Virus record (IMG/VR): IMGVR_UViG_3300032117_000139
Coordinates: 1 to 25,657 of that record
Reading direction: 5' to 3' (one strand)
Source: a virus
Length of the DNA stretch: 25,657 bases
Below, piece by piece: positions 2,669-25,657 of this stretch (position 1 is its first letter; every line of letters starts with the position of its first letter). Made by a program: the position numbers and the translations under genes. Under the pieces are notes generated by a model that saw only the letters and a program-made list of their open reading frames with translations, did no database searches and was not told where the DNA came from.

Positions 2669-4219
2669 TTAATTAAGTGTCATCAGCCAATCGTCAGCAA
2701 GAACATCCTGACGAGTAACTGGTGAGGCCGTCGTCATACGACCCATTTCGGGCAGGCGATTACTTCCACTTGCCACCTTTTGGCTCCGGGGTTGACGGGC
2801 CCCAGATTCTTCAAGCATGTCCAGGCTAGCCTTGAAACCGGCAAGCTTTGCATCAGACATTTGCTCAAACTTTGCGATATGCTTGGCACGGTCATCTCCT
2901 TGGACCATACCTAGCTTCTCGAGACGCTCTACAACCTGTAGTGCTTCAAAAATCTTCTCACGTGAGGCTTGAACTGATGCTTGGGCTTGGTAGCCAACAA
3001 GAGCAGGGTTCGTGCCGTCATATGGGAATGGATTACGGTCTTCATCAACCTGTGGTGTACGACCGGTCTCTGCACCGTCATTGTAGTAGTTAACGTAACC
3101 GGCAGCTTCACCGTTTACTTCTTCTGGTACTAGAACATTGGTAACGTGGTCTGGGGTAACTGTCTTCTCATAGGTGAAGTTACTGCCTGAGTCATCAAGG
3201 TCACGAACATCGGTAATCTGAAGTGTCTCTTGGTTACCGTTAGTGGCTTGCTTTTGCAAGTCTGGACCAGGTCCCATGCCATGCTCTGCCTTAGCGCAAT
3301 TTGCACACTGGAAGTTAAGACCACCACCTCTTTGAGGACGATTTAGTGACAATTTAGAAGTCATTACACCACAACCGCCAGCACCATGAATACCTTCACA
3401 GTTACCAGCACTTTCAAAGCTGGCTTCCTTTGGCTTCTTCTTACCGTCACAGTTCTCGATCTTGCATCTAGGACCTGAGCACCATTCGGTACGCTCTGCT
3501 AGACGTGAGTTACGAGCGGCAACACGTGCAGCAACTGAGGCCTTCTTCTTGCCTTCACAGTGCTCACAGCCCTTACCGTGGCAGTGCTTGCACTCATCGT
3601 CATCTTCGTCCATGTCTTCGTCCTTAGAAGCATACTTGTTAAGGTCCTCAAGGAATCCTTCAAGGCTCTGTAGGTCACTGTAGGCCTGGTCATAGTTGGC
3701 AGTAACTACTAGGTTGTCTTCGATGTCGTTGACAATACTGGCAATATTACCAATGGTGTAAACCAAGTCCTGGTCTTCACTGGCCGTACGAGCAAAACGG
3801 GTGGTGTCCTGAGCTGCAGTGATTAGACCATTGAAGTCAAAGTCCTGCTGGGTCTCAATAGCACTACGAACGTCACGAGATGCCTTGTAGATACTGTATA
3901 GGCTGTCATCTAGACTAGCATACATAGGACGTCCTTCTGCATAAACTGCACTACTACCAGGACCACCAATGATTTCGCCGTCTTCAGCGGCATCTAGGTC
4001 CTGAACATCAATGGTGCGCTCGGCTGGAGTATTAGCTACCCAGTCGGCCATCTCTTCAGCAGGTGCTGGTGATTGACTACTTAGACCGAATGGACCGTCG
4101 AGGTACATATTAGTCGTCTGGTCATATGGTTCTTGGCGAGGAGTAGTTGGCATTGGGAGTTTTCTCTCCTGCCAAGCATTCTCTGCTTCTTTTACAATCT
4201 CGTTGTCGAAACGACTCAT
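2669..4219 (-). CDS. Cys-rich acidic head-module protein; scaffold/core candidate (516 aa)
   Basis: The start overlaps the stop of the upstream gene by ATGA and has an AAGGAGC ribosome site. Residues 1-205 are acidic with predicted helices (for example 105-200). A very acidic patch (DEDMDEDDDE, about 200-209) precedes a DnaJ-like knuckle CKHCHGKGCEHC (C210, C213, C218, C221). Further cysteines at 247, 252, 257, 274, 283, 305 and 308 could bind more zinc. Residues 310-410 are low-complexity, and 410-470 is helical and charged. Five K/R-x-A-S tetrapeptides are scattered through it (RTAS, KYAS, KKAS, KEAS, KVAS). A gene between prohead protease and capsid is often the scaffold or core protein, which is usually cleaved. 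The zinc knuckles are not typical of scaffolds, so a minor internal capsid protein is the alternative. Confidence 0.75.
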   Translation of the reverse strand: MSRFDNEIVKEAENAWQERKLPMPTTPRQEPYDQTTNMYLDGPFGLSSQSPAPAEEMADWVANTPAERTIDVQDLDAAEDGEIIGGPGSSAVYAEGRPMYASLDDSLYSIYKASRDVRSAIETQQDFDFNGLITAAQDTTRFARTASEDQDLVYTIGNIASIVNDIEDNLVVTANYDQAYSDLQSLEGFLEDLNKYASKDEDMDEDDDECKHCHGKGCEHCEGKKKASVAARVAARNSRLAERTEWCSGPRCKIENCDGKKKPKEASFESAGNCEGIHGAGGCGVMTSKLSLNRPQRGGGLNFQCANCAKAEHGMGPGPDLQKQATNGNQETLQITDVRDLDDSGSNFTYEKTVTPDHVTNVLVPEEVNGEAAGYVNYYNDGAETGRTPQVDEDRNPFPYDGTNPALVGYQAQASVQASREKIFEALQVVERLEKLGMVQGDDRAKHIAKFEQMSDAKLAGFKASLDMLEESGARQPRSQKVASGSNRLPEMGRMTTASPVTRQDVLADDWLMTLN

Positions 4220-4866
4220 TGTAGCTCCTTGTTGTCTTCGGGGTTTTGACCCTCTGTTTGATTCTGGAAATATTCGTCCTGAGACACTTGCTGTAAAAGA
4301 TCTTTACCGCGAGTAACTTTGTCGCTGGAAGCCACCTGGTCGTTGTCGAGACTAGTACCAGGGCCCGGCTTAGAACTTTTCTTGTTCTTCAGCTTATCTT
4401 TTTCTTCTTTGATTTTTTCACTGGCCTTGCTTTTGGCATCGGCACTGGGAATAAATCGTTGTTTCTTATTCTTTAGAAGCTTAGGACTAATACCCGTAAA
4501 CTTCGGTCTCTTGTGATTGAGATCCATTGGTGGTTCTTCGTACATGCACTTCGGATTCTCACATTGAAGATTGAATCCTCTTCTACCGCACTGTGGGCAC
4601 TTGCTATCCTGGTCACTCTGGGCCGTTGGAAACATATCAACAAAAGAAAGACTTCTAAAAGCCGCCTTCTGCTGAATACCCTGTGATTCTTGCCAATCTT
4701 TAATAGCCGACATAACTTCTGGACTAATAAAAGCACAATCTTCACAAACACCACTTCGGTAATTGGTCCCGTTACACTGCGGACAATCACCCAATACAGT
4801 AATTTGGAGTCTAATGACTTCCATGGCTTCTTTACGAAGCTCTTCAGAAACCTTTAGAATCGGCAT
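4216..4866 (-). CDS. Double zinc-ribbon protein of the head module (216 aa)
   Basis: I place the start at ATG 4866, which shares one base with the protease stop codon (TAATG coupling). A TTG ten codons earlier would extend it but lacks a clear ribosome site. The protein has a four-Cys ribbon C28-x2-C31 / C41-x2-C44 and a second group C90-x2-C93 with C102 and C107, both typical of structural zinc sites. Between them is a FVDMFPT segment (75-81) resembling the FTKMF motif found in other proteins of this window. Residues 120-180 are Lys-rich, and the C-terminus is acidic and Gln/Asn-rich. No enzyme motif is seen. Context between protease and scaffold/capsid genes argues for a head assembly or internal head protein. 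Confidence 0.75.
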   Translation of the reverse strand: MPILKVSEELRKEAMEVIRLQITVLGDCPQCNGTNYRSGVCEDCAFISPEVMSAIKDWQESQGIQQKAAFRSLSFVDMFPTAQSDQDSKCPQCGRRGFNLQCENPKCMYEEPPMDLNHKRPKFTGISPKLLKNKKQRFIPSADAKSKASEKIKEEKDKLKNKKSSKPGPGTSLDNDQVASSDKVTRGKDLLQQVSQDEYFQNQTEGQNPEDNKELQ

Positions 4867-5531
4867 TACTGCACGTATTTCTTCTGGAGTAGCCAAGCAC
4901 TCTCATCGGCTGGGTCAAATACATAACTCAGTTCGAAGAAGTTGGGCTTGTGGCAGTTCTCCCAAACGAGAGATTCAATCCTCCTGCCCTGCTTATAAAC
5001 TACAACATTACGACCTTTTAACGCTGGAATGTGGGTGCAATACTCAGAAGGCTTGCTAGCATATTTACCACATGCACTGCAGGAAGTTCCTTCAACATCT
5101 GCACCCATACTTACAGCATTTAATCTGCCTTCCATAATGGCACTGGCCAAACGGGGAAAGCTTTCAGCATCTACTTCCATAAGACAGTAGACACTAGCGT
5201 CTGTGATACCACTAGCGAGTTTGGTCTCTCGATAGACGGCATCCTTGATTACTCCACGAGCTCTCTTGGGGTCACTATTGTTGTGCTCAACAAATACCGG
5301 ACGACCAATAAAACTCTTGTAACTGGTCTTAATTTCGTCAACTGGCCAACCATCATAATTGGCATTCACTCGACTAGAGATTGCTCGGGCCACGGTATAT
5401 AGGTAACCCTTACGCTCTTTGAAATTAAAATCATCAAATGTTACGTTGTGAAGACTGATGCTTTCCTTGTTGGCTAAAGTGGTACTGTGATCACCCATTA
5501 ACGTAACTGTAGGAGCACCAAATTTAATCAT
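4866..5531 (-). CDS. Prohead (capsid maturation) protease with zinc-binding insert
   Basis: Herpesvirus-assemblin-like phage maturation proteases have a His and a Ser in the contexts seen here: H83 in GRPVFVEHN and S141 in NAVSMGADVE. The Ser motif is followed by C151-x2-C154 and C165-x-H167 (CSACGKYASKPSEYCTH), a combination I recognise from prohead proteases of other large phages, and then by FFELSYVFDPAD (198-209), also typical. The enzyme would cleave scaffold, capsid and internal proteins before DNA packaging. Length (221 aa) fits the family. Its own sequence holds three K/R-x-A-S tetrapeptides (KLAS, RLAS, KYAS), possible self-cleavage sites if that motif is its target. The gene is coupled to the zinc-ribbon gene by TAATG. 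The ribosome site is weak. Confidence 0.85.
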   Translation of the reverse strand: MIKFGAPTVTLMGDHSTTLANKESISLHNVTFDDFNFKERKGYLYTVARAISSRVNANYDGWPVDEIKTSYKSFIGRPVFVEHNNSDPKRARGVIKDAVYRETKLASGITDASVYCLMEVDAESFPRLASAIMEGRLNAVSMGADVEGTSCSACGKYASKPSEYCTHIPALKGRNVVVYKQGRRIESLVWENCHKPNFFELSYVFDPADESAWLLQKKYVQ

Positions 5532-6113: not shown

Positions 6114-9100
6114 TTAGAAGTCGTCTAGACCAGCTCCGGTTACATCATGGTAGTCCATACCGCCATCGTCACTGTGAGCCTTTGTATTCTCATCTCCATC
6201 CATATTGGGCTTGGGGATTAGTGGACTCTCAGAAGCGGTCTTGGTTTCATCTTCATTGATGATACTAGCCAGGTGTTCCTTAAACTCGTCTTCACTGAAC
6301 TTCTCATAACTATCGTCAACGATAATCTTCATACCCTTGGCCAGTTTCATGCGCTTACGCTTTTTCTGCTCAAAGGGAACTGCAAACTTCATACGGTCAC
6401 CATAGGTAACAGTTTCAAATGGTTCGTCTTCATAGTCATCATCCCAACCACTGACACTAGCGGTCTTTCTCTTAGGTCCATTCTTTGGACCCTTCTTGGA
6501 CGGCTTAGGTTGACTCTTACGTTGTTCGTAACTCTCTTCAGGGCGCTGACGGCCTTGACCAGCAGCACTACTATTGGCTGCACTAGGATAACTCTCTTGA
6601 ACTGTAGTAACATCACTAGGATTACCAGGACCAGTCATGTTAGGGGCACTTGGTGCACTACCCACTCCGGCCATAGCTCCAGGAGCCAATTGAGCCATAA
6701 GAGCTGGATCTTCCATACCGGCAAGATAGGCCTGGTATTCTTGGAAGTATTCAGGAGGAATTGGAAGGCCTAGAGTCATTAGACGATCAAATAGTTCCTT
6801 CTTGAATTGCTGCTCAGCAACCACTGTAGCAATCTTTTCAAGCTTACGAGCCTCTACTTCATCTTCAAAGTCAATAGGAATATTAACTGCAAGAGTTCCA
6901 AGTGAAATTGGGAATCCACTGGCCTGTAGTTGTTGTAGGAATCCTCGTTCTACGGTTTCATCTCGTAGGTTCATACTACGGAATCTTACCTCTGGAATGG
7001 CCAACTTTGGACGTTCTTCTACAAATTCCGCACCGGTCTCTTCATCGACCATAAGTACAGTTTCCATAACAGGAACTCTCTGGCCTCCAACATTACGGAA
7101 CTCATAGTGGCCTTGACGTTCGGCAACAGGTTCCATACGAGAGCGAACAAACTTTTCAATCTTGTGCTGGTAGGTGGATAGCATCTGAGTAATGAGCTCA
7201 CGGTTAAGAGCGCCTGATGCATAGGTACCACCCTGGCCACCCTGGATAAGGTCACTACCAATACCGAATACACCCATAACATTGGTCTGTACTCGCATAA
7301 AGTCTTGGTCAAGTCTAGGCATTGCCTCACGACCGAAAGCATTCTGAATTTGTAGTCCGTGGTGATAGGTCATTAGACGGAAGTCAGAGTTAATGGCCAT
7401 ACTCAAGTCATCACGAAGACTTTGTAGTTCCATTGCATCCGGAATCCATGGACCATCTTGGTCAACATCTGGTAGACCCAAAGTGGCAAGAATTAGAGGA
7501 CTGTAGAGTCGGTCAGCAATAGCATCCTGAGCGGCATTCAAACTTTCTTCCAACATGAGCATACGGAATGCACGAAGAAGAATAGGAGTACCGTGTTCAC
7601 TCCAAGGGTTGGTATTATGTGTTACAAGACCGGCCGTGATGTGACTGTGATAGTCGGCAATACTTAGAGCACAAGTTACTTCTTCCCCAATTACTTCAAT
7701 ACTCTCAATAGCATCCCATTCAATAGTATCTCTATAGGTATTCTTAACTATTTCTCTTGAATGTACTTGCTTTCTAGGGAGGAGAGTATTTAAGTTCTCA
7801 GAAAGTATTGATAGCCCAATATGATTTTGTACTATTACACAACCATTATTTAGAGTACTAGATACTCCAAGTAAAGATAGCATTAATTGTACATCACTCA
7901 ATAGGCCTTCATTACTAGAAGTCCAGTAAACTCTAGGGTAATCTCCGTCTAGGAAACAGCCATCTGTATCTAAGTAACCTGATAAGAAGTTCCACCAAGC
8001 TTGGGGACCACTTTCCCAGATAATCTGGGGGACTATCTTATTGTGACAGGTCTGACCAAATATACCAACTTCACGGAAAAGATTTATTAACTCATTACTT
8101 CTAGTCTTCCCAGCTCTCTTACCAAGATTTTCATTAGACTTAATTCTATATTGCAAAGATGAACTAGCCATTTCGGGTATAGAACAATTATATTTGGCTA
8201 CAAACTTCCTAGTCCAATCTACTATCTCTTGGTCGTTACTAGTTATACTAAAGTCGTAATTATTATATGAGCCATCACCAACCATCATTCCAATAAATCT
8301 AGCTAGATCTGGGTCTATATACTCTGAGCCGAAACTACAATGAGAACCAACACGTACTAGATCCCCAGTCTCAAGGTCTTGTGCCTGTACCCATTCTTGA
8401 CTTATAGAACTAGCTGGGAAGTAGTGGGGGTTTGAACTATTCTTAGAACCACCAATATGACCTGCTTTTGACTTGGGGTTATCAAAGGTTTTATCGCAAG
8501 TCAAGCACGTATTTTCTGACTTAATAATTTTCTTAATCCAGAATGGATGCTCAAGAGTTGTCTTAATAGTGCGCCCAAACTTTGTAGTAATCTTAACTAC
8601 AGTTTCGGGGTCACGTAGACTATTAGCTTCTACATGACTAACTACAGCCCTATCATTCTCGGTATCCCAAGCAAAAACTGGGTCTCCGGCCTTTAACTCT
8701 CCAGCAGGTACTGGTCCAGAAGGTGTAAGTACATCAGTATCAGGAGTTACACACTTGAACTTAATCTGCTTCATGATTACATCAGAGACTGGAATCTCCT
8801 TGTCTTCACGAGCCCAAGCAACAACATCTGGGTAGAGTTGCATAAGCATTGCATACTCTTGAGGAGGGTCACGACGTTCGATGAGACGCTTGATCTCTTC
8901 GGGGACCTTAATGTGATATTGATAGGTTCTTAGAGCCCGATTCTTTGCAACAATAACATCATTCGGGTTAATAATTTCGTCATCTTCCCATGCTCCAATA
9001 CCATCATGCCAGGAACCCATGGCAAATACTTCACCAACAGTCCAGTGCTCACGACCAAGGTCATAAAGAAATTCATTATAGTCTAGACCATCAAAGAATA

Positions 9101-9617
9101 GTTCATTGTAGAACTCGGCAATACGCTTATCCGGGTGGATAAGTTCAATATCGAGAAGAGGAAATCGAGTATAGATATCGATTAGACCAGGTACCAAGTG
9201 GTGGGTGGTGTAGAGTAGACGAGCCCAGTCACGAATCTTACGTGTCTGCTCATCTGGGTCTTCCATATTGAACCACCAGGTGCGTTCACGCCAGTATTCA
9301 AATGGGTCGTGTAGCTTAGGCCAGGCCCACTGAGCATCTGAACCAGTAGCAGCACCTGTTCTACGGTTAGGAGTATTGGCCACTCCACCCTCAAGCATCA
9401 TGTTGTTCTTGAGAGCATTTAGTCTTTGTCGACCCTCTGGAGGACCACCCATGGCCATAGCCATTGGTCCAACATCAGCGGCCATTGAACCGTTCTTGAC
9501 ATTATTGAGCATGTCACGAGCGGCAACACGACCAGCAATTGGGTTTCTAGGAAGGGTAATGCCGGCCTTGCGCATTTTATTAAACTCGGCTGAGGCGCCC
9601 CAATTTCCTTCAGACAT
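6114..9617 (-). CDS. Portal protein, interrupted in frame by a 380-aa intein
   Basis: The 1167-codon frame is a 787-aa portal protein with an intein at residues 289-668. The N-extein has a Gly/Met/Ala-rich lead (1-100), then a portal-like region with WAWPKLHDPFEYWRERTWW (97-115) and an Asp/Glu-rich helical core. The C-extein resumes with TNPWSEHGTPILLRAFRML, a segment characteristic of large-phage portals, followed by helices suited to the crown and stem and a low-complexity acidic/basic tail (from about 1000). The tail holds two KTAS tetrapeptides (KRKTASVSG and ETKTASESP). The ribosome site is AGGACAATA-ATG. The portal is the ring at one capsid vertex through which DNA is packaged and ejected; splicing must occur before assembly. 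The 61-aa gene at 9629 ends 11 bases upstream. Confidence 0.87.
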   Translation of the reverse strand: MSEGNWGASAEFNKMRKAGITLPRNPIAGRVAARDMLNNVKNGSMAADVGPMAMAMGGPPEGRQRLNALKNNMMLEGGVANTPNRRTGAATGSDAQWAWPKLHDPFEYWRERTWWFNMEDPDEQTRKIRDWARLLYTTHHLVPGLIDIYTRFPLLDIELIHPDKRIAEFYNELFFDGLDYNEFLYDLGREHWTVGEVFAMGSWHDGIGAWEDDEIINPNDVIVAKNRALRTYQYHIKVPEEIKRLIERRDPPQEYAMLMQLYPDVVAWAREDKEIPVSDVIMKQIKFKCVTPDTDVLTPSGPVPAGELKAGDPVFAWDTENDRAVVSHVEANSLRDPETVVKITTKFGRTIKTTLEHPFWIKKIIKSENTCLTCDKTFDNPKSKAGHIGGSKNSSNPHYFPASSISQEWVQAQDLETGDLVRVGSHCSFGSEYIDPDLARFIGMMVGDGSYNNYDFSITSNDQEIVDWTRKFVAKYNCSIPEMASSSLQYRIKSNENLGKRAGKTRSNELINLFREVGIFGQTCHNKIVPQIIWESGPQAWWNFLSGYLDTDGCFLDGDYPRVYWTSSNEGLLSDVQLMLSLLGVSSTLNNGCVIVQNHIGLSILSENLNTLLPRKQVHSREIVKNTYRDTIEWDAIESIEVIGEEVTCALSIADYHSHITAGLVTHNTNPWSEHGTPILLRAFRMLMLEESLNAAQDAIADRLYSPLILATLGLPDVDQDGPWIPDAMELQSLRDDLSMAINSDFRLMTYHHGLQIQNAFGREAMPRLDQDFMRVQTNVMGVFGIGSDLIQGGQGGTYASGALNRELITQMLSTYQHKIEKFVRSRMEPVAERQGHYEFRNVGGQRVPVMETVLMVDEETGAEFVEERPKLAIPEVRFRSMNLRDETVERGFLQQLQASGFPISLGTLAVNIPIDFEDEVEARKLEKIATVVAEQQFKKELFDRLMTLGLPIPPEYFQEYQAYLAGMEDPALMAQLAPGAMAGVGSAPSAPNMTGPGNPSDVTTVQESYPSAANSSAAGQGRQRPEESYEQRKSQPKPSKKGPKNGPKRKTASVSGWDDDYEDEPFETVTYGDRMKFAVPFEQKKRKRMKLAKGMKIIVDDSYEKFSEDEFKEHLASIINEDETKTASESPLIPKPNMDGDENTKAHSDDGGMDYHDVTGAGLDDF
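7614..8753 (-). mobile_element. Intein with LAGLIDADG homing endonuclease and inserted zinc finger, in the portal gene
   Basis: The boundaries are exact. Cys1 is portal codon 289 (8753-8751); the C-terminal His-Asn is codons 667-668 (Asn at 7616-7614); the +1 residue is Thr669. Splicing block A is CVTPDTDVLTPSG; block B is TTLEHPFW with the TxxH catalytic motif; block F is LSIADYHSHITAGLVTHN. Between them lie two LAGLIDADG helices, LARFIGMMVGDGS (438-450) and FLSGYLDTDGCF (544-555), with acidic residues D448 and D552 retained, so the endonuclease looks intact. Residues 371-398 form CLTCDKTF...H...H, a C2H2-like finger between block B and the EWVQAQDLETGDLV strand. The segment is visibly more AT-rich and uses AGA arginine codons more than the flanking extein, which suggests later arrival. 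This is a class 1 intein that can splice itself out and home into intein-free portal alleles. Confidence 0.95.
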
Positions 9618-11821: not shown

Positions 11822-13870
11822 TTATTTTGCAGGTGGAATAGCTTGACCATTATCACCCAGGTTAGTACTCTTGAGTCTGGTCATTTTTTCTACCTTGGGA
11901 AGTTTAGGCATCTTATTGTCATTTTTAGGAATACCTGGGTCTATTCTCGCTGGAGCACTAGGAGTATCAATACCAATTTCAGTATCTATTTTTCTAGTCT
12001 CTGGAGTAATGCCATAGTTATAACTAGCAATAGCAATAGTACTAGGAATAAAGTCTACTTCTACAATGCCATCATCGGGTAGTGTTCTAAAATTCTCAGC
12101 AAAGGCAAATGGATTGTCACACTCTTCGTGAGCATAAAGAGGACGTCCATTAGCGGCTGTACCGGTTTGGATAATTTCACCCTTACTGTTAGTATTAGAT
12201 GGGTCATCACAGAAACGGCAAGGAACCCCTCTTTGGAATTCATCAGTGACATGAACATAACTCTTCTTGGGAAGAAGTCTACTGATATCCATCTTGGGCT
12301 TTAAAGGAGCCTGTCCGGGTTCAAAGGTCTTTTCTTCACTAGATTCCATAGGTGTATCCCAAAGTTTAGGGTTGTCTTTACGAGCTTGTAATTGGCCCAT
12401 AATAGTAGCAATAGGTTGAATTCTCTTGAGTTTTTCAAAGGAGCCACTATCGGAACCAAATGGATTCTTCAAGTAGGCCATAAAACTTGCAGTAGTGGGT
12501 CTTCCGCCTACAACTCCCTCTTGCTCTCCAAAGAACTGTCTCATGTCTGCCTTACCAGTTCGTTCATTAACGGCAAGGTGATCTTTTACAGCACTACTTG
12601 GAACGTGGATTACACGATCAGGGTTAACTACTACACCTCTACGCATACCACCAATACCGGCCTGTTGCCATTCTGGAAGGACGGTTTCAATAGGGTGATA
12701 GGTACGCTCTTTGGGACTTAGTGGGTCACTGGGGTCAATTGGGTCACTGGTAACGTTTTGAGTAAAAGAGTCGTGTCTAATCTTTGCACGGCCATAGTCT
12801 AGCTTACCCTTAGTTCCAGGATTCTTTTGATCCAGTAGAGTAATATGAAACTGAGTTTGACCTGGTACATATTCACCAGTCTCTGTCATATCATTTATAG
12901 GGCAATTGGCTGCATGCAACCAGGCTTGTTGAGGGGCACCTGGAGCAAAAGGAAGATCTGGGTTATGCTTGGCACAGTGCTCCATGTGGAATCCAATAGG
13001 GCATTCTGGATGGTGGCCTGCAACTGTAGGACCTTCATAGTGGTTACATAGTTCACGATGCTTATCAAGAGCAGCGTCACTAAGTACCTTGGTACGCTTT
13101 GGGTCTCTCTTAACAAGGCCTGTAATCATACCAATATTACGGCCTCTAGTACTCAATCCACCAATGGCTCCATCACCATTCCATACTGTAACAATATGTC
13201 CTAGAGGCCCATGTGGAGTTTTTTCACATGGGATTGTTGGGTCATGATCGCACTGAGCAAAAATCTCATGGTGCTCTTGAGGTTCAAAGATAGGAGGGAT
13301 TCTAATTGGGTTACTGTCTTCTTCATCTCTAATACGTTCACGACAATTATGACAAGTCCCAACTACATTAGGATTGTGACAGCCTTCACATTCAGTGCCA
13401 TAGGTATCTGTATCACTGGCTCTTTTGTTGTGAGTACGAGCGTCCATCTGAGCCCATTCATGCTCACCAACTTTTTGCTCCCACTCTTTGCCCTTTTCAA
13501 TGTGGGCTGCAATTTCAGGGTCACTGTGTTTGACTTCATTTTCGCGAAAGATAAGTGAACGAGCATCACCCAGCCAACTGGCTAGTCGTGGTCTTTTACT
13601 ACTTTCAAGCATGGCTTTACGAGCAGACTCCACTACACCGGCTTCAGGAGCTTTATTGGCAGCTGACTGAGCTTCTTCAATCTGACTAGGAGTCATGGGT
13701 AAACCAATAACTCGTGTCTTATTAGTGTACTCTTCTTCAGCTGCTTTTTGTGCAGGAGTTTTCTTACCTCTACCAGTAGCCGGTAGTGCAGGGGCTCTAA
13801 AGTTGAAGATCTTGGGAGTACGATTCAGTGTACCGTCATTTTCATCAGCAGAGTAGTGAAGATTATCCAT
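11822..13870 (-). CDS. Large Cys/His-rich protein of unknown function (682 aa)
   Basis: The start overlaps the preceding stop by one base (TAATG). Residues 30-160 are charged and helical and contain RLASWLGDARS (96-106). A zinc-ribbon pair follows: C161-x2-C164 and C173-x2-C176. Residues 205-300 hold more Cys and His (C207, C215, C275, C290, C299) among beta-strand-like stretches such as GHIVTVWNGDGAIGG (224-238). Residues 335-435 look like a barrel half ending in GVVVNPDRVIHVPSSAV. A last finger is C551-x2-C554 with H581-x2-C584. The C-terminus is Lys/Pro-rich and ends in VEKMTRLKS-type sequence. No recognised family fits. Similar zinc and SH3-like elements in the 601-aa gene suggest related roles. 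Confidence 0.75.
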   Translation of the reverse strand: MDNLHYSADENDGTLNRTPKIFNFRAPALPATGRGKKTPAQKAAEEEYTNKTRVIGLPMTPSQIEEAQSAANKAPEAGVVESARKAMLESSKRPRLASWLGDARSLIFRENEVKHSDPEIAAHIEKGKEWEQKVGEHEWAQMDARTHNKRASDTDTYGTECEGCHNPNVVGTCHNCRERIRDEEDSNPIRIPPIFEPQEHHEIFAQCDHDPTIPCEKTPHGPLGHIVTVWNGDGAIGGLSTRGRNIGMITGLVKRDPKRTKVLSDAALDKHRELCNHYEGPTVAGHHPECPIGFHMEHCAKHNPDLPFAPGAPQQAWLHAANCPINDMTETGEYVPGQTQFHITLLDQKNPGTKGKLDYGRAKIRHDSFTQNVTSDPIDPSDPLSPKERTYHPIETVLPEWQQAGIGGMRRGVVVNPDRVIHVPSSAVKDHLAVNERTGKADMRQFFGEQEGVVGGRPTTASFMAYLKNPFGSDSGSFEKLKRIQPIATIMGQLQARKDNPKLWDTPMESSEEKTFEPGQAPLKPKMDISRLLPKKSYVHVTDEFQRGVPCRFCDDPSNTNSKGEIIQTGTAANGRPLYAHEECDNPFAFAENFRTLPDDGIVEVDFIPSTIAIASYNYGITPETRKIDTEIGIDTPSAPARIDPGIPKNDNKMPKLPKVEKMTRLKSTNLGDNGQAIPPAK

Positions 13871-14277
13871 TATTCTGCCTTCTTGTTAACATTAAAAATA
13901 CGAGTGAAGTTCTTCATTTTGAGTACAGGCTTTTCATTACGCTTCTTGGTACGGTTAATGGCCTCTTCAGCATAGGCTGATTCTAGTCCACCTGGTAGAG
14001 AAGTATTATCTGTACTTGTAGGGGCTCCAAATGCCGTACGATCTTCATGTAGTCCTAGAATATCTTTTTCTAGGTGGGGAAGACAGTTTAAGCAGACTGT
14101 ACTAAGAACACCATAAGTGTGATAGGGATCAACAAGTGCCTTTTCTGCAGAGCACTGGACGGGCTTTCCCTTATCGTCAGTGTATAGACCTCTAGTTTGG
14201 CACTCTGAGCCTAATTCGGCAGCACCTTCAGTGAGTCTGTCTGAGCCTTTGGTGGCCTCGGCAATTACCTTGAACAT
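13870..14277 (-). CDS. Small Cys-containing protein ending in an FTRIF motif (135 aa)
   Basis: The start ATG at 14277 has no clear ribosome site, so it probably depends on read-through from the 601-aa gene 19 bases upstream. The protein contains C26, C42, C62 and C65 (CQTRGLY...CSAEK...CLNC), a plausible single zinc site, then a polar middle. The last 20 residues are basic and include NFTRIFN at 123-129, the short motif shared with the C-termini of the 601- and 350-aa proteins. Function is unknown. The stop shares a base with the next start (TAATG), indicating translational coupling to the 682-aa gene. Confidence 0.65.
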   Translation of the reverse strand: MFKVIAEATKGSDRLTEGAAELGSECQTRGLYTDDKGKPVQCSAEKALVDPYHTYGVLSTVCLNCLPHLEKDILGLHEDRTAFGAPTSTDNTSLPGGLESAYAEEAINRTKKRNEKPVLKMKNFTRIFNVNKKAE

Positions 14278-14296
14278 AGTATATTACTATTAAATA

Positions 14297-16102
14297 CTAT
14301 TGGTTCTTGGGACCAAACATCTTGGTAAAGTTAGGAACTCGACCGGCTGGAGCATTAGTGGGATTGGCTGCACCAGCTCCACCCATACCACGTCGACGAA
14401 TATCATTAAAGGTACTCTGACGAGACTGCCAGTCTTGGTTATCTGCACCTGGTGTAGCTGGTTGAACAACTTGTGTACGACCGGCTTCATGATCTGTCCC
14501 AAAACTACCAATGCGTGACTCTTCACGGAAACCTACTGGAACTTCTCCTGAGCCATCTGGGAGGGTTCCTCCACCAAACATGCGAGTAAGTCGAGTTCCA
14601 CCCTTGGTCTGCTTACGGAAGGCACCGTGGATAATTGGAAGAATCTTACCACTACCGGCTGCACTTGGGTCTAGGTGACTACCAAATTCTGGGTTAAAGT
14701 CGGCACGAGGTTGGCCACCTTCAGTGTATTGACTTGAACTACCACTAAAGTCACGAGGACCGTGCTCTAGTTGGTAGCTGTCCTTGGCCTCACTACGTGG
14801 ACCACTAGGAGCATCTTCACTATAGGCGTGAGTTGGAGTACTGCGGTTTGTAGTATAACCTACAATCTGGCCAACATTCTTGAACTTAGGAGCCATCTTC
14901 TTGCGAGCGTAACCCATAACTCGAACAAAAGCACCCTGGTCCTTGGTACTCTCGGCATCGTGTAGTGGGTGCTTGCCATTAACATCATAACCAAATGTCT
15001 GAGCATGCTGGTCTAGGAAGTCATGAATATTGGCACTATTACCTTCTGGTAGAGCGGTAAGGTGGTGTGCAGGAACAAAACCAGTAGTTTCTGGAGCTTC
15101 ATAGTGTTGCATTTCACCATTAGCACCTTCTACAATATTAGCTGGGTAGACGTGATTGCCCACTCCTTCTGGGTTCATTGCTCCAATTTCAGCAACATGG
15201 TAGTGACGACCACCACACTGGCAACCGGCATATCCTTCGTGGGTACTACCATTGCAGTTTACATCACTAAGGTCTGGGCTTCCACCCTTTGTAGCTCCAA
15301 GCAGACGACCAAGAGTAACATCCTTGTGACTTCCATCTGGGTTAAACTTGTGGATTAGGACGTAATCGCCTTCCTTGTGCTTAGCAGCTACAGATGGATC
15401 AGCAAGTGTCTGTTGGTGTTCTGGGTCATTAACAATACGACCGAGTTCGCTATTTGCTCCACCCTTGGAGATAAAGTGACTAATGATCTGGTTAGGACTG
15501 TAAGCCATGGCCTCACGAGGAGCAAAACGCTCTTCAAGTGCTGCCATCTTTTCTACGGCCTTACTGGACTTCTTCAAGTGCTTACTGCAAATGTCTAGGT
15601 GACCACGAACATCATCTGCTCTTGAACCATCTGTAAGAGTGGCTCCACATTCATCACAAGTAGTGTCCTTTTGACCGGCATGTGCAGTCTTGGCCTGGCA
15701 ACCAGCACCTGATGGGCAGTGCCATCCCTTACCGGACTTGTGGCCTGTAGCACCCTTGCAAGTTGCACAAGAGCCTACATTATCACCAAAATTGTGGACA
15801 TCAGTACTGGCAACTTTGCAACTAGTGCAGTTAGCGTGACGAATCTTCCACTCTTCGTGAAGTGCACGGACTAGCTTGAACTTACTATCACTTACAGTAG
15901 CCATCTTTCGACGAGCAGCACTCTCAATATCACTTTCTACCATTTGGCAGCGTAGTGCAAATTCCTTGTCAGTGTGTGCAAGGAAGAGAAATTCACCGGT
16001 CTTGGTAAGAACTTCATGCTTGGCCGTTACTAGATTCTTACCGGCAGTCTTGGCCTGGTAAGCGGCATTGAGTGAGTCATCGTAGTCAAAAACTGATGTC
16101 AT
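14297..16102 (-). CDS. Large Cys/His-rich protein of unknown function with FTKMF C-terminus (601 aa)
   Basis: Residues 1-90 are helical and charged (a possible helical bundle: KHEVLTKTGEFLFLAHTDKE). Then comes a zinc-rich block: C92-x2-C95, C112-x2-C115, C129, C135, C149-x2-C152, H168 and C172. Residues 244-350 look like an SH3-like barrel (DYVLIHKFNPDG, VTLGRLLGA, HYHVAEIG, VYPANIV, GFVPAHHL) with a Cys insert (C283, C294, C296). The C-terminal third is Gly/Ser/Pro-rich and probably disordered. It carries LTRMFGG at 505-511 and ends NFTKMFGPKNQ. No catalytic motif is identifiable. The gene follows a short intergenic region after the tRNA block and leads a run of related-looking genes. Confidence 0.75.
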   Translation of the reverse strand: MTSVFDYDDSLNAAYQAKTAGKNLVTAKHEVLTKTGEFLFLAHTDKEFALRCQMVESDIESAARRKMATVSDSKFKLVRALHEEWKIRHANCTSCKVASTDVHNFGDNVGSCATCKGATGHKSGKGWHCPSGAGCQAKTAHAGQKDTTCDECGATLTDGSRADDVRGHLDICSKHLKKSSKAVEKMAALEERFAPREAMAYSPNQIISHFISKGGANSELGRIVNDPEHQQTLADPSVAAKHKEGDYVLIHKFNPDGSHKDVTLGRLLGATKGGSPDLSDVNCNGSTHEGYAGCQCGGRHYHVAEIGAMNPEGVGNHVYPANIVEGANGEMQHYEAPETTGFVPAHHLTALPEGNSANIHDFLDQHAQTFGYDVNGKHPLHDAESTKDQGAFVRVMGYARKKMAPKFKNVGQIVGYTTNRSTPTHAYSEDAPSGPRSEAKDSYQLEHGPRDFSGSSSQYTEGGQPRADFNPEFGSHLDPSAAGSGKILPIIHGAFRKQTKGGTRLTRMFGGGTLPDGSGEVPVGFREESRIGSFGTDHEAGRTQVVQPATPGADNQDWQSRQSTFNDIRRRGMGGAGAANPTNAPAGRVPNFTKMFGPKNQ

Positions 16103-16481: not shown

Positions 16482-16526
16482 AAAAGCCTCCTCATTACAG
16501 AGAGGACTTCTGGGGGATTTTACAAG

Positions 16527-16598
16527 TTCCCCAGCCACGGTTCGAACGTGGAATGACAGATTCAAAGTCTGTAGTGTTGCCGGTTACACTACCGGGGA
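16527..16598 (-). tRNA. tRNA-Gln(TTG)
   Basis: The minus strand folds as a complete cloverleaf: acceptor TCCCCGG/CTGGGGA (one G-U pair), anticodon stem ACAGA/TCTGT with loop CTTTGAA giving anticodon TTG, and T-arm CCACG-TTCGAAC-CGTGG. The discriminator is A and CCA is not encoded. It begins one base after tRNA-Asn, so both are processed from one precursor. It would read CAA, and by wobble CAG, glutamine codons. Confidence 0.93.
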
Positions 16599-16599
16599 T

Positions 16600-16674
16600 T
16601 GGCTCCCTGGGATGGATTCGAACCACCGACCAAGTCATTAACAGTGACCCGCTCTGCCGCTGAGCTACCAGGGA
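16600..16674 (-). tRNA. tRNA-Asn(GTT)
   Basis: Acceptor TCCCTGG pairs perfectly with CCAGGGA, the anticodon loop is CTGTTAA (anticodon GTT), and the T-loop is TTCGAAT. The discriminator is G and the CCA end is encoded. It starts four bases after the stop of the 94-aa ORF and ends one base before tRNA-Gln, so the transcript mixes message and tRNA. Confidence 0.94.
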
Positions 16675-16678
16675 ATAG

Positions 16679-16963
16679 TTACTTCTTAAAGTGCAACTTG
16701 CTCACTACTTCATGGAATTCATTTTCCACTTTAGAGAACTCGGCAAGTATATCGCTCTTTATTTGTTCAGGATTTTTAAGAAGATCAAAGTCTTTCTTGG
16801 CCTCATTAAAATAGTTTTCAACTTCACTCTTATAGGCCTTAAGTGAATAGATGAAACTTTGAATCTGATATTTGTCCTGCTTGAGATTATTAATGGTTGA
16901 AATTATATTGCCAATTCCAGCAACACCAGCAAGACTAGCTGTTAGATCAGTGATATTAAACAT
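16679..16963 (-). CDS. Small helical protein whose ATG overlaps the CCA end of a tRNA (94 aa)
   Basis: The only ATG compatible with a tRNA-free product is at 16963-16961; its A is also the last base of the encoded CCA of the upstream tRNA-Thr. A longer in-frame reading would be translation of tRNA sequence and is rejected. The protein has a hydrophobic N-terminus (about 6-22, LASLAGVAGIGNI type) and then a long charged helix (30-92), suggesting a membrane-associated coiled coil. No ribosome binding site is available outside the tRNA body, so translation may need an unprocessed transcript or leaderless initiation after tRNA cleavage. Coding status is supported by helix-like composition only. 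Confidence 0.55.
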   Translation of the reverse strand: MFNITDLTASLAGVAGIGNIISTINNLKQDKYQIQSFIYSLKAYKSEVENYFNEAKKDFDLLKNPEQIKSDILAEFSKVENEFHEVVSKLHFKK

Positions 16964-17037
16964 GGCGATCTTGATGGGATTTGAACCCACGACCTTCGCA
17001 TTACAAAAGCACTGCTCTACCGCTGAGCTACAAGACC
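16963..17037 (-). tRNA. tRNA-Thr(TGT), second of a tandem pair
   Basis: Acceptor GGTCTTG/CAAGATC (one G-U pair), D-arm GCTC/GAGC, anticodon loop TTTGTAA giving TGT, T-loop TTCAAAT, discriminator G, and encoded CCA. The anticodon stem is weak: GTGCT opposite TGCGA gives only two Watson-Crick pairs, one U-G, a G-A at its base and a U-U next to the loop. Bases 8-48 are identical to the first tRNA-Thr, so they are duplicates with diverged acceptor and T stems. The final A is the A of the next gene's ATG. Confidence 0.88.
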
Positions 17038-17041
17038 TTAG

Positions 17042-17113
17042 AGCCCGAAGAGGGATTCGAACCCCCGACCTTCGCATTACAAAAGCACTGCTCTACCGCT
17101 GAGCTATTCAGGC
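17042..17113 (-). tRNA. tRNA-Thr(TGT), first of a tandem pair
   Basis: Acceptor GCCTGAA/TTCGGGC (one T-G pair), anticodon loop TTTGTAA (TGT), T-arm GGGGG-TTCGAAT-CCCTC, discriminator T, no encoded CCA (CTC follows). It has G1-C72 and C2-G71, which match bacterial threonine identity elements better than its neighbour does. It shares the same mismatched anticodon stem. It starts about four bases after the start site predicted from the upstream promoter-like sequence, and four bases separate it from the second copy. Confidence 0.9.
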
Positions 17114-22267: not shown

Positions 22268-22879
22268 CTAGAAGCAGGGAGTTCCGGCTTTGTGATTACC
22301 ACCACAACTAGTGCAGTAGCCCATTCCGAGATCATCTTCGTCTTCGTGAGTATTAAAGAATGAAGGGTGAAAGGCAGAGGCCAATGGAGTAATACCACTG
22401 CCTACATCTTGATTATTATTGACCTCTACACCATCTTCAGTTTCGGTGGTACTAGGAACAAGTCTATCGAGAGGATTACTAGCCGTTCTTTCTTCCTTGG
22501 GCTTATCCTCTTCAGTGTAGTCCATATCTCCAACAATTTTAACTGGAGCTTCAGTAAAGTAGGCAATACTCTCAACAATACGAGCAGTATGTGCTCTCTT
22601 TTCTTCCATATAGGCTGATTGATTGGCTTTTTGTTGAGCACGCTTTTCCTGCTCTGCATTACCGGGTGTAAAAGTATAGCATTTAGCTTCTGCACCTGGG
22701 CCCTTCCATCCTGGAAGTCCATCTACACTGCAGCTCTCGGCTCCACCAGCAGCCAACTTAAACTCAAAGCCCAGTGAAGAACTCTTGAGAATATTACGGC
22801 AGGCAAAACAAAAGATCTCTTCTCCGGCACTAGAGATCTTGGTAACAGTGGAACCTGAACAGAGAGGGCAATCATTCAT
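22268..22879 (-). CDS. Zinc-ribbon protein (203 aa)
   Basis: The ATG at 22879 follows the upstream stop by one base (TAA-T-ATG) and is preferred to an in-frame TTG four codons earlier. The N-terminus is a zinc ribbon: C4-x2-C7 (CPLC) and C24-x2-C27 (CFAC). Residues 40-140 are polar and partly helical and contain RTAS at 131-134. The acidic region 143-185 precedes a C-terminal C189-x2-C192 with C202 (CTSCGGNHKAGTPCF). Nothing identifies an enzyme. The double-ended zinc layout with a disordered centre fits a scaffold or adaptor. Confidence 0.7.
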   Translation of the reverse strand: MNDCPLCSGSTVTKISSAGEEIFCFACRNILKSSSLGFEFKLAAGGAESCSVDGLPGWKGPGAEAKCYTFTPGNAEQEKRAQQKANQSAYMEEKRAHTARIVESIAYFTEAPVKIVGDMDYTEEDKPKEERTASNPLDRLVPSTTETEDGVEVNNNQDVGSGITPLASAFHPSFFNTHEDEDDLGMGYCTSCGGNHKAGTPCF

Positions 22880-22880
22880 A

Positions 22881-24323
22881 TTATTCACCAAAAAACTTTG
22901 AAACTACATCTGTGGGGAATTCTAGCTTAGAAGCTACAGTTCTATTGGGTAAGAATAGCTTGGGCTTAGTAGAAACATCTGGGGTAGTAGGACCATTTGG
23001 AAGACTAGCGTGTAGGTGGTGCTCAGAGTCATTGCCTAGAGTTTCACAAGCCTTACATACTGCCTCTGAACCCTTTTCTGCTTGCTCACCCTGATTCATA
23101 AACATCATGTTCTGCATAAGCATTTGCTTATTCATTTGGTGCTGTTGACGTTTGGCAGCTTCATCGGCCATTAGCTGCTGGCCGAATGCTTTTGGGTCTG
23201 CAAGAGATTCTCGAACACTGGCAGTTGCCATAGAGTGGCCATCAGTTAGTTCATTAAGTCCACGATCAGCATCACCCTGCATTAGATCACGAGGAGTGTA
23301 GTTACTATTGGGCTTAATGTCATAAAGAGTTTGTGGAACAGACTGCTGAGGTACTTGGTGGTAGAACTTGAACTGTTCATAACCATGGAAGTAGTCATCA
23401 CTAAGTTCAGCTAGATCTTCATCTAGCTCCTTACTGGACTTGGCATCTTCATATCCACGGTAGTAAAGAGCAGAGTCACTGGCTTCACGAGTAAAGGCCT
23501 CAAGATAGTCATCTGTACTGGCAAGCTTAGTCTCTTCATCACCGGTCTTGATGACATCACCGTCTACAGTGTCACCTTCTTCAATCTTACCGGCAGCAAG
23601 AGTAAAGTGATCATCGGCATTACCATTAGGTACAAAGGTGTGGGGACCTTCTTGGGTATAGTCAACTACTCCCTCAGCATCAGAGCATCCTGGAAATCCA
23701 CAGTGTGCAGTTCGAGCATGTTCAATACTCTCTGGAACATAATACTGTTCACAACTTGCACACTTGCTTTCACCGTGTTCCATAATCCATGCAACTTTGT
23801 TGAAACTTGCAGTAGGCATCATTATTCCTGTCTGGGGCTGTCCGGCCTGGGTAGTAGGAGTAGGGATAGTACTTGGTGGTACTGTAGGAGTAGGAACTGA
23901 TCCAGCACTAGCACCAGCACTGCCTACACCGGCATTGGGCATAATAGGAGCTGGAGTAGGAGCAGCAACAGCAGCAGGAGTAGCCATAGGGCTGTCTGTA
24001 CTGGCCTGGTGAAATTTTGAATTTAGTCTTGTAGGCACTGCATCCTCCACAGGAGTATTAAAAGTCTGGTCAATGCCGAGTTCTGCAAGAGGCCCAACCG
24101 GCACTGGCTTCTTCATTAAATCGGCATGTTGTGTTGTATTGTCTAGTCCATTGTCTTCTAGGTTAGTGGCATTATCTTGAGCAATTCTCTGCTTAAGTTT
24201 GCCGATAACACTTTTAACATTGGTGGTACCAGGAAAAGAAAAGCTTTCACCCTCTTCTACCTTACCAAGTGCTTCAAGATCGTCATCAGCAGATCTATTG
24301 CCTAGTCCACTATCTACTGACAT
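22881..24323 (-). CDS. Large Cys-containing protein with Pro/Ala/Thr linker and SKFFG end (480 aa)
   Basis: Residues 1-110 are charged and helical. Residues 114-165 form a Pro/Ala/Thr/Gly-rich flexible linker. A zinc motif follows: C188-x2-C191, H202, C208, C213 (CASCEQYY...HCGFPGC). Residues 240-325 are acidic and contain KLAS and REAS. The region 385-415 is Gln/Met-rich and helical (KRQQHQMNKQMLMQNMMF), with C423-x2-C426 just after. The protein ends TDVVSKFFGE, close to the FTKMF endings of neighbours. An AGAGGGATC ribosome site precedes ATG. No family is recognised. Confidence 0.72.
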   Translation of the reverse strand: MSVDSGLGNRSADDDLEALGKVEEGESFSFPGTTNVKSVIGKLKQRIAQDNATNLEDNGLDNTTQHADLMKKPVPVGPLAELGIDQTFNTPVEDAVPTRLNSKFHQASTDSPMATPAAVAAPTPAPIMPNAGVGSAGASAGSVPTPTVPPSTIPTPTTQAGQPQTGIMMPTASFNKVAWIMEHGESKCASCEQYYVPESIEHARTAHCGFPGCSDAEGVVDYTQEGPHTFVPNGNADDHFTLAAGKIEEGDTVDGDVIKTGDEETKLASTDDYLEAFTREASDSALYYRGYEDAKSSKELDEDLAELSDDYFHGYEQFKFYHQVPQQSVPQTLYDIKPNSNYTPRDLMQGDADRGLNELTDGHSMATASVRESLADPKAFGQQLMADEAAKRQQHQMNKQMLMQNMMFMNQGEQAEKGSEAVCKACETLGNDSEHHLHASLPNGPTTPDVSTKPKLFLPNRTVASKLEFPTDVVSKFFGE

Positions 24324-24360
24324 TAGATCCCTCTGACGTTCTCATGTTACTAAAATGATC

Positions 24361-25413
24361 TTACTGTGGTTTTACAATTGTTGGAAACATTTTAGTAAAA
24401 CCTTGGAGCTTGGTAGGAGCAGTTCTCTTTAGAGCTCCTTCATGAGTATTGTCATTTAGACGAGCACTAACATAGGCAGCAGGGTCATGATTCTTATTAA
24501 CTGCATCCCAATATTCGGCATGAGTTACACCATTTTGTAGGCCACGAATATAGTGCTCATCACCTGTAGGTTCTATGGCACCAGTGGTATTATTAGGCTT
24601 TAGAAACTTACCCAGGGACTGCTTGGCTTCTTTATGTGTAGCCCCACCTTCACGATAGGTAGCATAGTGATCGAGAATTGATCTAGCAGCAAGCTTATTA
24701 GCTCTAGGATTAACCTGACTATTATTTTGACCATGCTTGACAATATCCACTATGTCATTAAAGTCTTCATGTGCTTCCATGCCTTTAGCTCCTGGGGCAT
24801 TCCTTAGTCTGGCATAAGTGTCTAGGGGGCTATATGACCGAGATTCTTCGTTGTCGGTACCCACTGGAGTATGTTGAAAGTCTATTCTAAAAGGGTGTAG
24901 CATTCTAGCGGCATCCATCACTTCTTCGTGAGTGGCTCCACCAATTCTTGCACTAACATAGTGTGGAAGATTTCCCGGACTATAAGAGCTTGAATACTGA
25001 TCTCGTTCGGCCGGATGCATTCGACAAGCGGCTCTATGAGCTCGAGCTTGTTCAGGACTCATACGTTTAATGTCATTAGGGTTGTAGTGGCCAACATTAT
25101 GTGCACGATTGATATCACTTGGGTCTACTCCGTGATCCCAACCTTCAGCATATAATGCAAGTGGAACTCGAGGATTTAACTCTTGAATACGACTTACTGG
25201 AAAATTAGTACCTGCTCCAGTATTACGAATCATGCGAGTAACGCTGGATACACCCTCAGTGAGATAACGTTGGTGTCTCTGCTCTGGATCTTGCTCTCCA
25301 TTAGGCAAACGATCTAGTTCACGAAGTTTATCTACAGTGAGGCCATTACGAGCCCACTCTAGAAGACTACGATCATCCAAGTTTTGGATATCTAGCTTGA
25401 CATCTCTTGTCAT
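24361..25413 (-). CDS. GATH-repeat protein with FTKMF C-terminus (350 aa)
   Basis: Four copies of a short helical repeat, Y-x3-[RL]-x2-[GN]-x-T-H-x-E, are visible: 152-168, 250-266, 288-304 and 314-330 (best cores GGATHEE and GGATHKE). Copies are separated by unequal spacers, so this is not a strict tandem array. I recall similar GATH repeats in unidentified actinophage proteins, without a defined function. Residues 1-60 are helical and charged (LLEWARNGLTVDKLRELDRL). Only one Cys (130). The tail ends GFTKMFPTIVKPQ, the exact FTKMF found in the 601-aa protein. The start codon directly follows the upstream stop (TAA-ATG). Confidence 0.72.
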   Translation of the reverse strand: MTRDVKLDIQNLDDRSLLEWARNGLTVDKLRELDRLPNGEQDPEQRHQRYLTEGVSSVTRMIRNTGAGTNFPVSRIQELNPRVPLALYAEGWDHGVDPSDINRAHNVGHYNPNDIKRMSPEQARAHRAACRMHPAERDQYSSSYSPGNLPHYVSARIGGATHEEVMDAARMLHPFRIDFQHTPVGTDNEESRSYSPLDTYARLRNAPGAKGMEAHEDFNDIVDIVKHGQNNSQVNPRANKLAARSILDHYATYREGGATHKEAKQSLGKFLKPNNTTGAIEPTGDEHYIRGLQNGVTHAEYWDAVNKNHDPAAYVSARLNDNTHEGALKRTAPTKLQGFTKMFPTIVKPQ

Positions 25414-25657
25414 TTACCAGTCACTATCCAAGTTAGAATACTGATCTACCCAACTACTGGCCACTACTTGACGACCACACTTGGGGCAAGTTTCAAGGCC
25501 GCAGTTACAACCACATTGGCAAGGAGTTTGGCCACAAGTGCACTTATCTCTATCCTTAATTTCTGCAGCCTTAGCAGCACAGTCTTCATCACTGGTGCAG
25601 GGACTCTGACCGTTTTCACGGTGCCAGTCATCATGGCCCTTATCGTGTCTAAGAACT
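25414..25657 (-). CDS. Cys-rich zinc-binding protein, C-terminal part only (starts beyond the window)
   Basis: About 80 codons of the C-terminus are present; the start lies off the right edge. The segment holds ten cysteines, eight of them packed in CTCGQTPCQCGCNCG and CPKCGRQVV, consistent with a multi-zinc or metallothionein-like cluster followed by a short zinc-ribbon-like pair. The end is acidic and aromatic (VDQYSNLDSDW). The stop is directly joined to the next start (TAA-ATG). No family is recognised. Confidence 0.65.
   Translation of the reverse strand, partial: VLRHDKGHDDWHRENGQSPCTSDEDCAAKAAEIKDRDKCTCGQTPCQCGCNCGLETCPKCGRQVVASSWVDQYSNLDSDW

Follow-up and report, generated by a model that had tools for sequence, protein, structure and literature searches.

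The portal protein gene of the freshwater phage represented by IMG/VR record IMGVR_UViG_3300032117_000139 carries an intein, and a stretch of this intein with two cysteines and two histidines resembles a zinc finger. The whole record, 25,657 nucleotides long, is referred to here as the window. The question raised by this locus is what a finger of this kind would do inside the splicing domain of an intein. Features of the locus are listed in Table 1.

Table 1. Features of the portal gene and its intein in the window.
Feature	Positions	Strand	Details
Portal protein precursor, one intein	6114-9617	minus	1167 aa ORF
Intein, 380 aa, precursor residues 289-668	7614-8753	minus	Cys1 to His379-Asn380, then Thr
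Splicing block B TLEHPFWI (T66xxH69), precursor 354-361	8535-8558	minus	aligned to relatives
Insert, ~45 residues (intein 75-119), between HPFW and EWVQA	8397-8531	minus	alignments; strands 70-78 and 115-123 flank
C2H2-like motif C83-x2-C86-x12-H99-x10-H110	8424-8507	minus	precursor C371, C374, H387, H398
Hint strand EWVQAQDLETGDLV, precursor 408-421, downstream of insert	8355-8396	minus	
LAGLIDADG homing endonuclease domain, intein residues ~144-340	7734-8324	minus	Pfam LAGLIDADG_3, E 3.9e-10
DOD motif IGMMVGDGS, D160	8268-8294	minus	G/D columns conserved in relatives
DOD motif LSGYLDTDG, D264	7959-7985	minus	G/D columns conserved in relatives
C-terminal splicing region YHSHITAGLVTHN	7614-7652	minus	alignment with relatives

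Both exteins matched the portal protein family PHROG 2833 (E 1.3e-113 and 2.5e-44), and the intein matched Pfam Intein_splicing (E 1.1e-9) and the NCBI intein N-terminal model TIGR01445 (E 6e-9). All class 1 splicing residues were present (Cys1, T66xxH69, H379-N380 and Thr at +1), as were two LAGLIDADG motifs with both catalytic aspartic acids intact. W121 and L127 of the strand EWVQAQDLETGDLV were nearly invariant in the alignment of intein relatives. The element is a canonical class 1 LAGLIDADG homing-endonuclease intein. Since the splicing residues and both LAGLIDADG aspartic acids are intact, splicing and cleavage are expected, and the portal intein probably cuts DNA.

An earlier note on this DNA described a CxxC-x12-H-x10-H motif at precursor residues 371-398, between block B and EWVQAQDLETGDLV, and translation of the ORF bears this out. 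The coordinates given at the time, 8455-8545, were off, as C371 to H398 are encoded at 8424-8507 on the minus strand and positions 8535-8545 belong to block B. In 200,000 shuffles of the intein, the strict pattern C..C...F.{8}H.{2,12}H occurred at a rate of 3.5e-5 and the looser pattern C..C.{12}H.{2,12}H at a rate of 1.3e-3; the motif is unlikely to be there by chance. Classical C2H2 fingers have a C-x2-4-C-x12-H core with an aromatic residue at Cys+4, followed by H-x3-5-H. The core is found in the insert (C83-x2-C86, F90 at Cys+4, and H99), but the classical H-x3-5-H spacing is found neither here (x10) nor in the second finger intein described below (x11). The motif is called C2H2-like, not C2H2, because the second histidine lies 10 residues on, outside the classical spacing of about 3-5. 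Analysis of the isolated insert against Pfam gave zf-C2H2_jaz as the best match (E 0.0014, 19.2 bits, curated cut-off 22.6), which ends just past the first histidine. The match to zf-C2H2 reached 13.3 bits, below its curated cut-off of 25.2, and zf-C2H2_2, also under its cut-off, was likewise weaker than zf-C2H2_jaz. The insert is mildly basic, with seven K/R and four D/E. From this pattern we infer that the two cysteines and two histidines of the insert are zinc ligands.

Structure prediction and profile alignment placed the insert within the Hint domain. The AlphaFold2 model of the intein, built on a 40-row alignment, had a pLDDT of 87.5 and showed a Hint domain with a nested endonuclease domain; the single-sequence model had a pLDDT of 39. 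The best structural match was TliVMA (Z 32.3, rmsd 2.8 over 317 residues), and PI-SceI matched with Z ~24. Strands 70-78 and 115-123 of the model make up a hairpin stalk that ends in the insert, and the insert itself, modelled without zinc, has a pLDDT of ~47-55 and no helix. Comparison by hhalign (alignment A5 against PI-SceI, the PI-SceI sequence being identical to PDB 1dfa) put the insert at the position of the DNA recognition region of PI-SceI, a slot which in the profile alignment lies between the block B histidine and the FEWTIEARDL strand. PI-SceI, the yeast VMA1 intein, thus resembles the window intein in being a LAGLIDADG intein with an accessory module at the same Hint slot, from block B to EWxxxAxDL. 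The likeness is one of position: no sequence similarity was seen between the insert, which is of low confidence in the model, and the PI-SceI region. The latter is longer, has no Cys2His2 and is known from a solved DNA complex, whereas the window finger is known from its sequence and a low-confidence model.

Comparison with related inteins showed how the slot is filled elsewhere. One relative (L001) is 99.96% identical to the window virus over 9140 bases and is no independent evidence, because it is practically the same virus. In two others (L002 and L003) the intein is 91% identical, with the four putative ligands and F90 kept and T85, D87 and K88 altered. Between the window and L002 the insert shows 17 synonymous and five nonsynonymous differences (dS 1.17, dN 0.046), against a dN of 0.041 for the intein overall. 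Since these values are close to those of the rest of the intein, the insert appears to be under purifying selection. The fingerless portal inteins of related freshwater phages (L019, L021 and L025) have an unbroken HPFLT(E/D)NGWVEA at this point. The portal inteins of Bxz1-like mycobacteriophages (ET08, Gizmo, Colt, Cane17 and Blubba), which are full-length relatives with 27-29% identity but occupy a different portal site from that in the window, have an unbroken HPFWTDQGWVKA and no finger. Many further relatives hold other loops at the slot, often basic, for example RLRTPGGR and RPRSPGKR. Because relatives hold such differing loops, the slot is best described as a variable hairpin tip, with the finger as one of several fillings. 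An insert between block B and the strand is thus not unexpected. Conservation of the cysteines and histidines, named earlier as a check on the finger, holds for the insert-bearing relatives of this type, which keep every ligand, but in the nearest relatives the insert is missing altogether.

The insertion site was compared among 39 related portals. At the site KQIKFK/TNPWSEHG, 34 were uninterrupted, three had a finger intein (the window's own virus included) and two had a fingerless intein. One portal that is empty at the site (L184) is 95% identical in its C-terminal half. In the alignment, the fingerless inteins of L019, L021 and L025 share the portal insertion site of the window intein exactly and are 41-43% identical to it. 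Between the window and L002, dS was 0.80 for the intein and 2.0 and 1.3 for the exteins, values so high as to be imprecise; the lower divergence of the intein would follow from its having moved once the phages had separated. Judging from these comparisons, the portal intein is a mobile element. The presence of two intein lineages, ~41-43% identical, at one portal site suggests competition for the homing site. As fingerless inteins share the insertion site, the finger is not required for recognition of the portal site, and its being essential for target choice was ruled out on this ground. The portal ORF of L021 (contig IMGVR_UViG_3300032665_000070) holds two inteins, one after ...HDPFEYWRER and the other, fingerless, at the site of the window intein.

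A second finger intein was found in Eggerthella phage LE2-3. An ORF annotated as a tRNA synthetase contains an intein with SCICGRSFKSHRSLAAHVREAAKNGVDGH between HPVW and GWVIASDL. Its finger, CxC-x12-H-x11-H, has a Cys-Cys spacing one residue shorter than that in the window, and both cysteines, the phenylalanine and both histidines align to the window finger. Scanned alone, the LE2-3 insert gave an independent match to zf-C2H2 (E 0.0067). The fingers of the two inteins are alike and fill the same slot; the inteins differ in host gene, are ~25% identical and have linkers of unequal length, the longer in LE2-3. By eye, from shared sequence, the LE2-3 ORF is homologous to the head-maturation-protease-like gene of the window (4866-5531). 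The portal-gene intein of LE2-3 has no finger. In a tree built with the inserts removed, the two finger lineages were not united (p-AU 0.037), a value to be read with the long branch of LE2-3 in mind and with the tested group having been chosen after the data were seen. This suggests that the finger was gained repeatedly or transferred as a module. The LE2-3 genome (L011, L222-L224) has several inteins, one of them finger-bearing.

The search for the same insert in other phage inteins, proposed in the earlier note, yielded the allele of L002 and L003 and the LE2-3 intein, and strict scans added no others. The pattern HP-x-W followed by CxxC-x3-F-x8-H, read in frame, was found in this lineage only, both in 2.9 million viral contigs and in 84,980 species genomes, and the remaining strict-pattern matches were chance frames. 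With a looser pattern, none of the matches listed lay in an intein. Pattern scans of this kind do not establish uniqueness because they miss other spacings, that of LE2-3 among them. Searches for a donor with the insert or the finger alone returned weak or chance matches, except for LE2-3; two of the three matches inspected lay opposite annotated genes. Two low-scoring matches (L012 and L014) were rejected as not being inteins.

Elsewhere in the window, four tRNA genes lie at 16526-17113 on the minus strand, one for Gln, one for Asn and two for Thr with the same anticodon. The start of the ORF at 16679-17077 is probably wrong, because this ORF overruns the tRNA-Thr genes. CxxC pairs resembling zinc ribbons occur in many ORFs on the minus strand (2669-4896, 4866-5531, 11822-16102 and 22268-25656), and the density of candidate zinc-binding sites in the phage ORFs appears unusual.

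We hold with moderate confidence that the splicing domain of this mobile LAGLIDADG intein gained a C2H2-like finger of ~45 residues that aids homing through DNA contact. The two cysteines and two histidines would bind zinc, and the finger would fold at the tip of the hairpin and touch DNA flanking the cleavage site. From this contact homing cleavage would gain affinity, specificity or register, as it does in PI-SceI from the DNA recognition region. For splicing itself the finger is probably dispensable. An accessory DNA-binding finger is the best reading because its slot equals that of the PI-SceI region. The suggestion in the earlier note that the finger adds DNA contacts thus gains from this slot, from the recurrence in LE2-3 and from retention of the ligands in the L002/L003 allele, and loses from the finger being dispensable for the site. 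Against a DNA-contacting arm there are also the low pLDDT of the insert, the Pfam scores below cut-offs, the H-x10-H spacing, the only mild basicity of the insert and the finding of no more than two finger lineages.

Several of these points could be met by a tolerated loop expansion without zinc or particular function, its Cys/His pattern being partly fortuitous. Length at the slot varies across relatives and the nearest of them have no insert, the AlphaFold2 insert is of low confidence, and only two lineages with a finger were found. Such an origin is nevertheless unlikely in view of the chance rate of the strict motif, the retention of every ligand despite an insert dS of ~1.2, and the recurrence of the motif in LE2-3 with almost equal spacing. 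It is also improbable that the finger binds zinc but makes no direct contact with DNA, its role being to cap the structure or to switch splicing or the fidelity of the endonuclease in response to redox state or zinc. The zinc finger of I-TevI serves as a distance ruler and reportedly responds to redox conditions (PMC2988022), and the target site is common to fingerless inteins, so that direct recognition by the finger is inessential. However, the insert sits on an extended hairpin in the model and nothing here ties it to regulation. Zinc-sensitive splicing, the other role proposed earlier, is without support, because the reported inhibition of inteins by zinc acts at active-site residues (PMC7765530) and not through an insert of this kind. 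A redox switch made of the CxxC disulfide alone was thought less likely, since both histidines and the phenylalanine also recur.

The finger might instead be a vestige of a different target, left by retargeting and now dispensable at the portal site. The LE2-3 finger intein does lie in another gene, a homologue of the head maturation protease, and fingerless inteins also occupy the portal site; with an insert as constrained as the rest of the intein, this history is very unlikely. Little probability is given to a finger that contacts RNA or protein (a nascent transcript, the portal or a host factor) in place of homing-site DNA. The best Pfam match, zf-C2H2_jaz, is named as a double-stranded RNA-binding finger, but that match is weak and the slot corresponds to a DNA-contact module. 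An accessory finger that contacts homing-site DNA remains our preferred reading.

Related arrangements are known from two other systems. HO and WHO of yeast were described in 2020 as the sole known fusions of an intein with a zinc finger, and, like the window intein with its putative finger, they combine an intein-like LAGLIDADG nuclease with zinc-binding motifs (PMC7282813). In HO/WHO the zinc domain lies at the C-terminus and has several CxxC repeats, exteins and block G are absent, and HO does not splice (PMC7282813), whereas the window intein has an internal finger together with exteins, block G and the full set of splicing motifs. I-TevI of phage T4 is, like the window intein, a phage homing endonuclease with a small accessory zinc finger (PMC2988022). 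It differs in being a GIY-YIG enzyme encoded by an intron, not an intein, with the finger in a linker adjoining the DNA-binding domain. In the open-access literature, which leaves most subscription papers outside, no further description of finger inteins was found. The module looks like one of a known kind, the accessory DNA-recognition module of inteins, and what appears to be new is an internal finger in an intein that has its splicing motifs and lies inside a host protein.

Homing endonucleases are thought to shift targets partly through gain or loss of accessory DNA-binding modules. Possibly, though we put this forward only tentatively, the window holds a splicing-competent phage intein whose finger is an exchangeable arm for DNA recognition at the PI-SceI slot, similar modules having arisen or been transferred two or more times among related phages, and thus a natural finger-assisted meganuclease that coexists with fingerless competitors at one target. 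Because finger, fingerless and empty alleles share the portal site, the share of the finger in meganuclease targeting is measurable in a natural setting. Should the finger prove both to bind zinc and to contact DNA, the hairpin slot would offer a ready-made joint for small DNA-binding modules on a splicing meganuclease.
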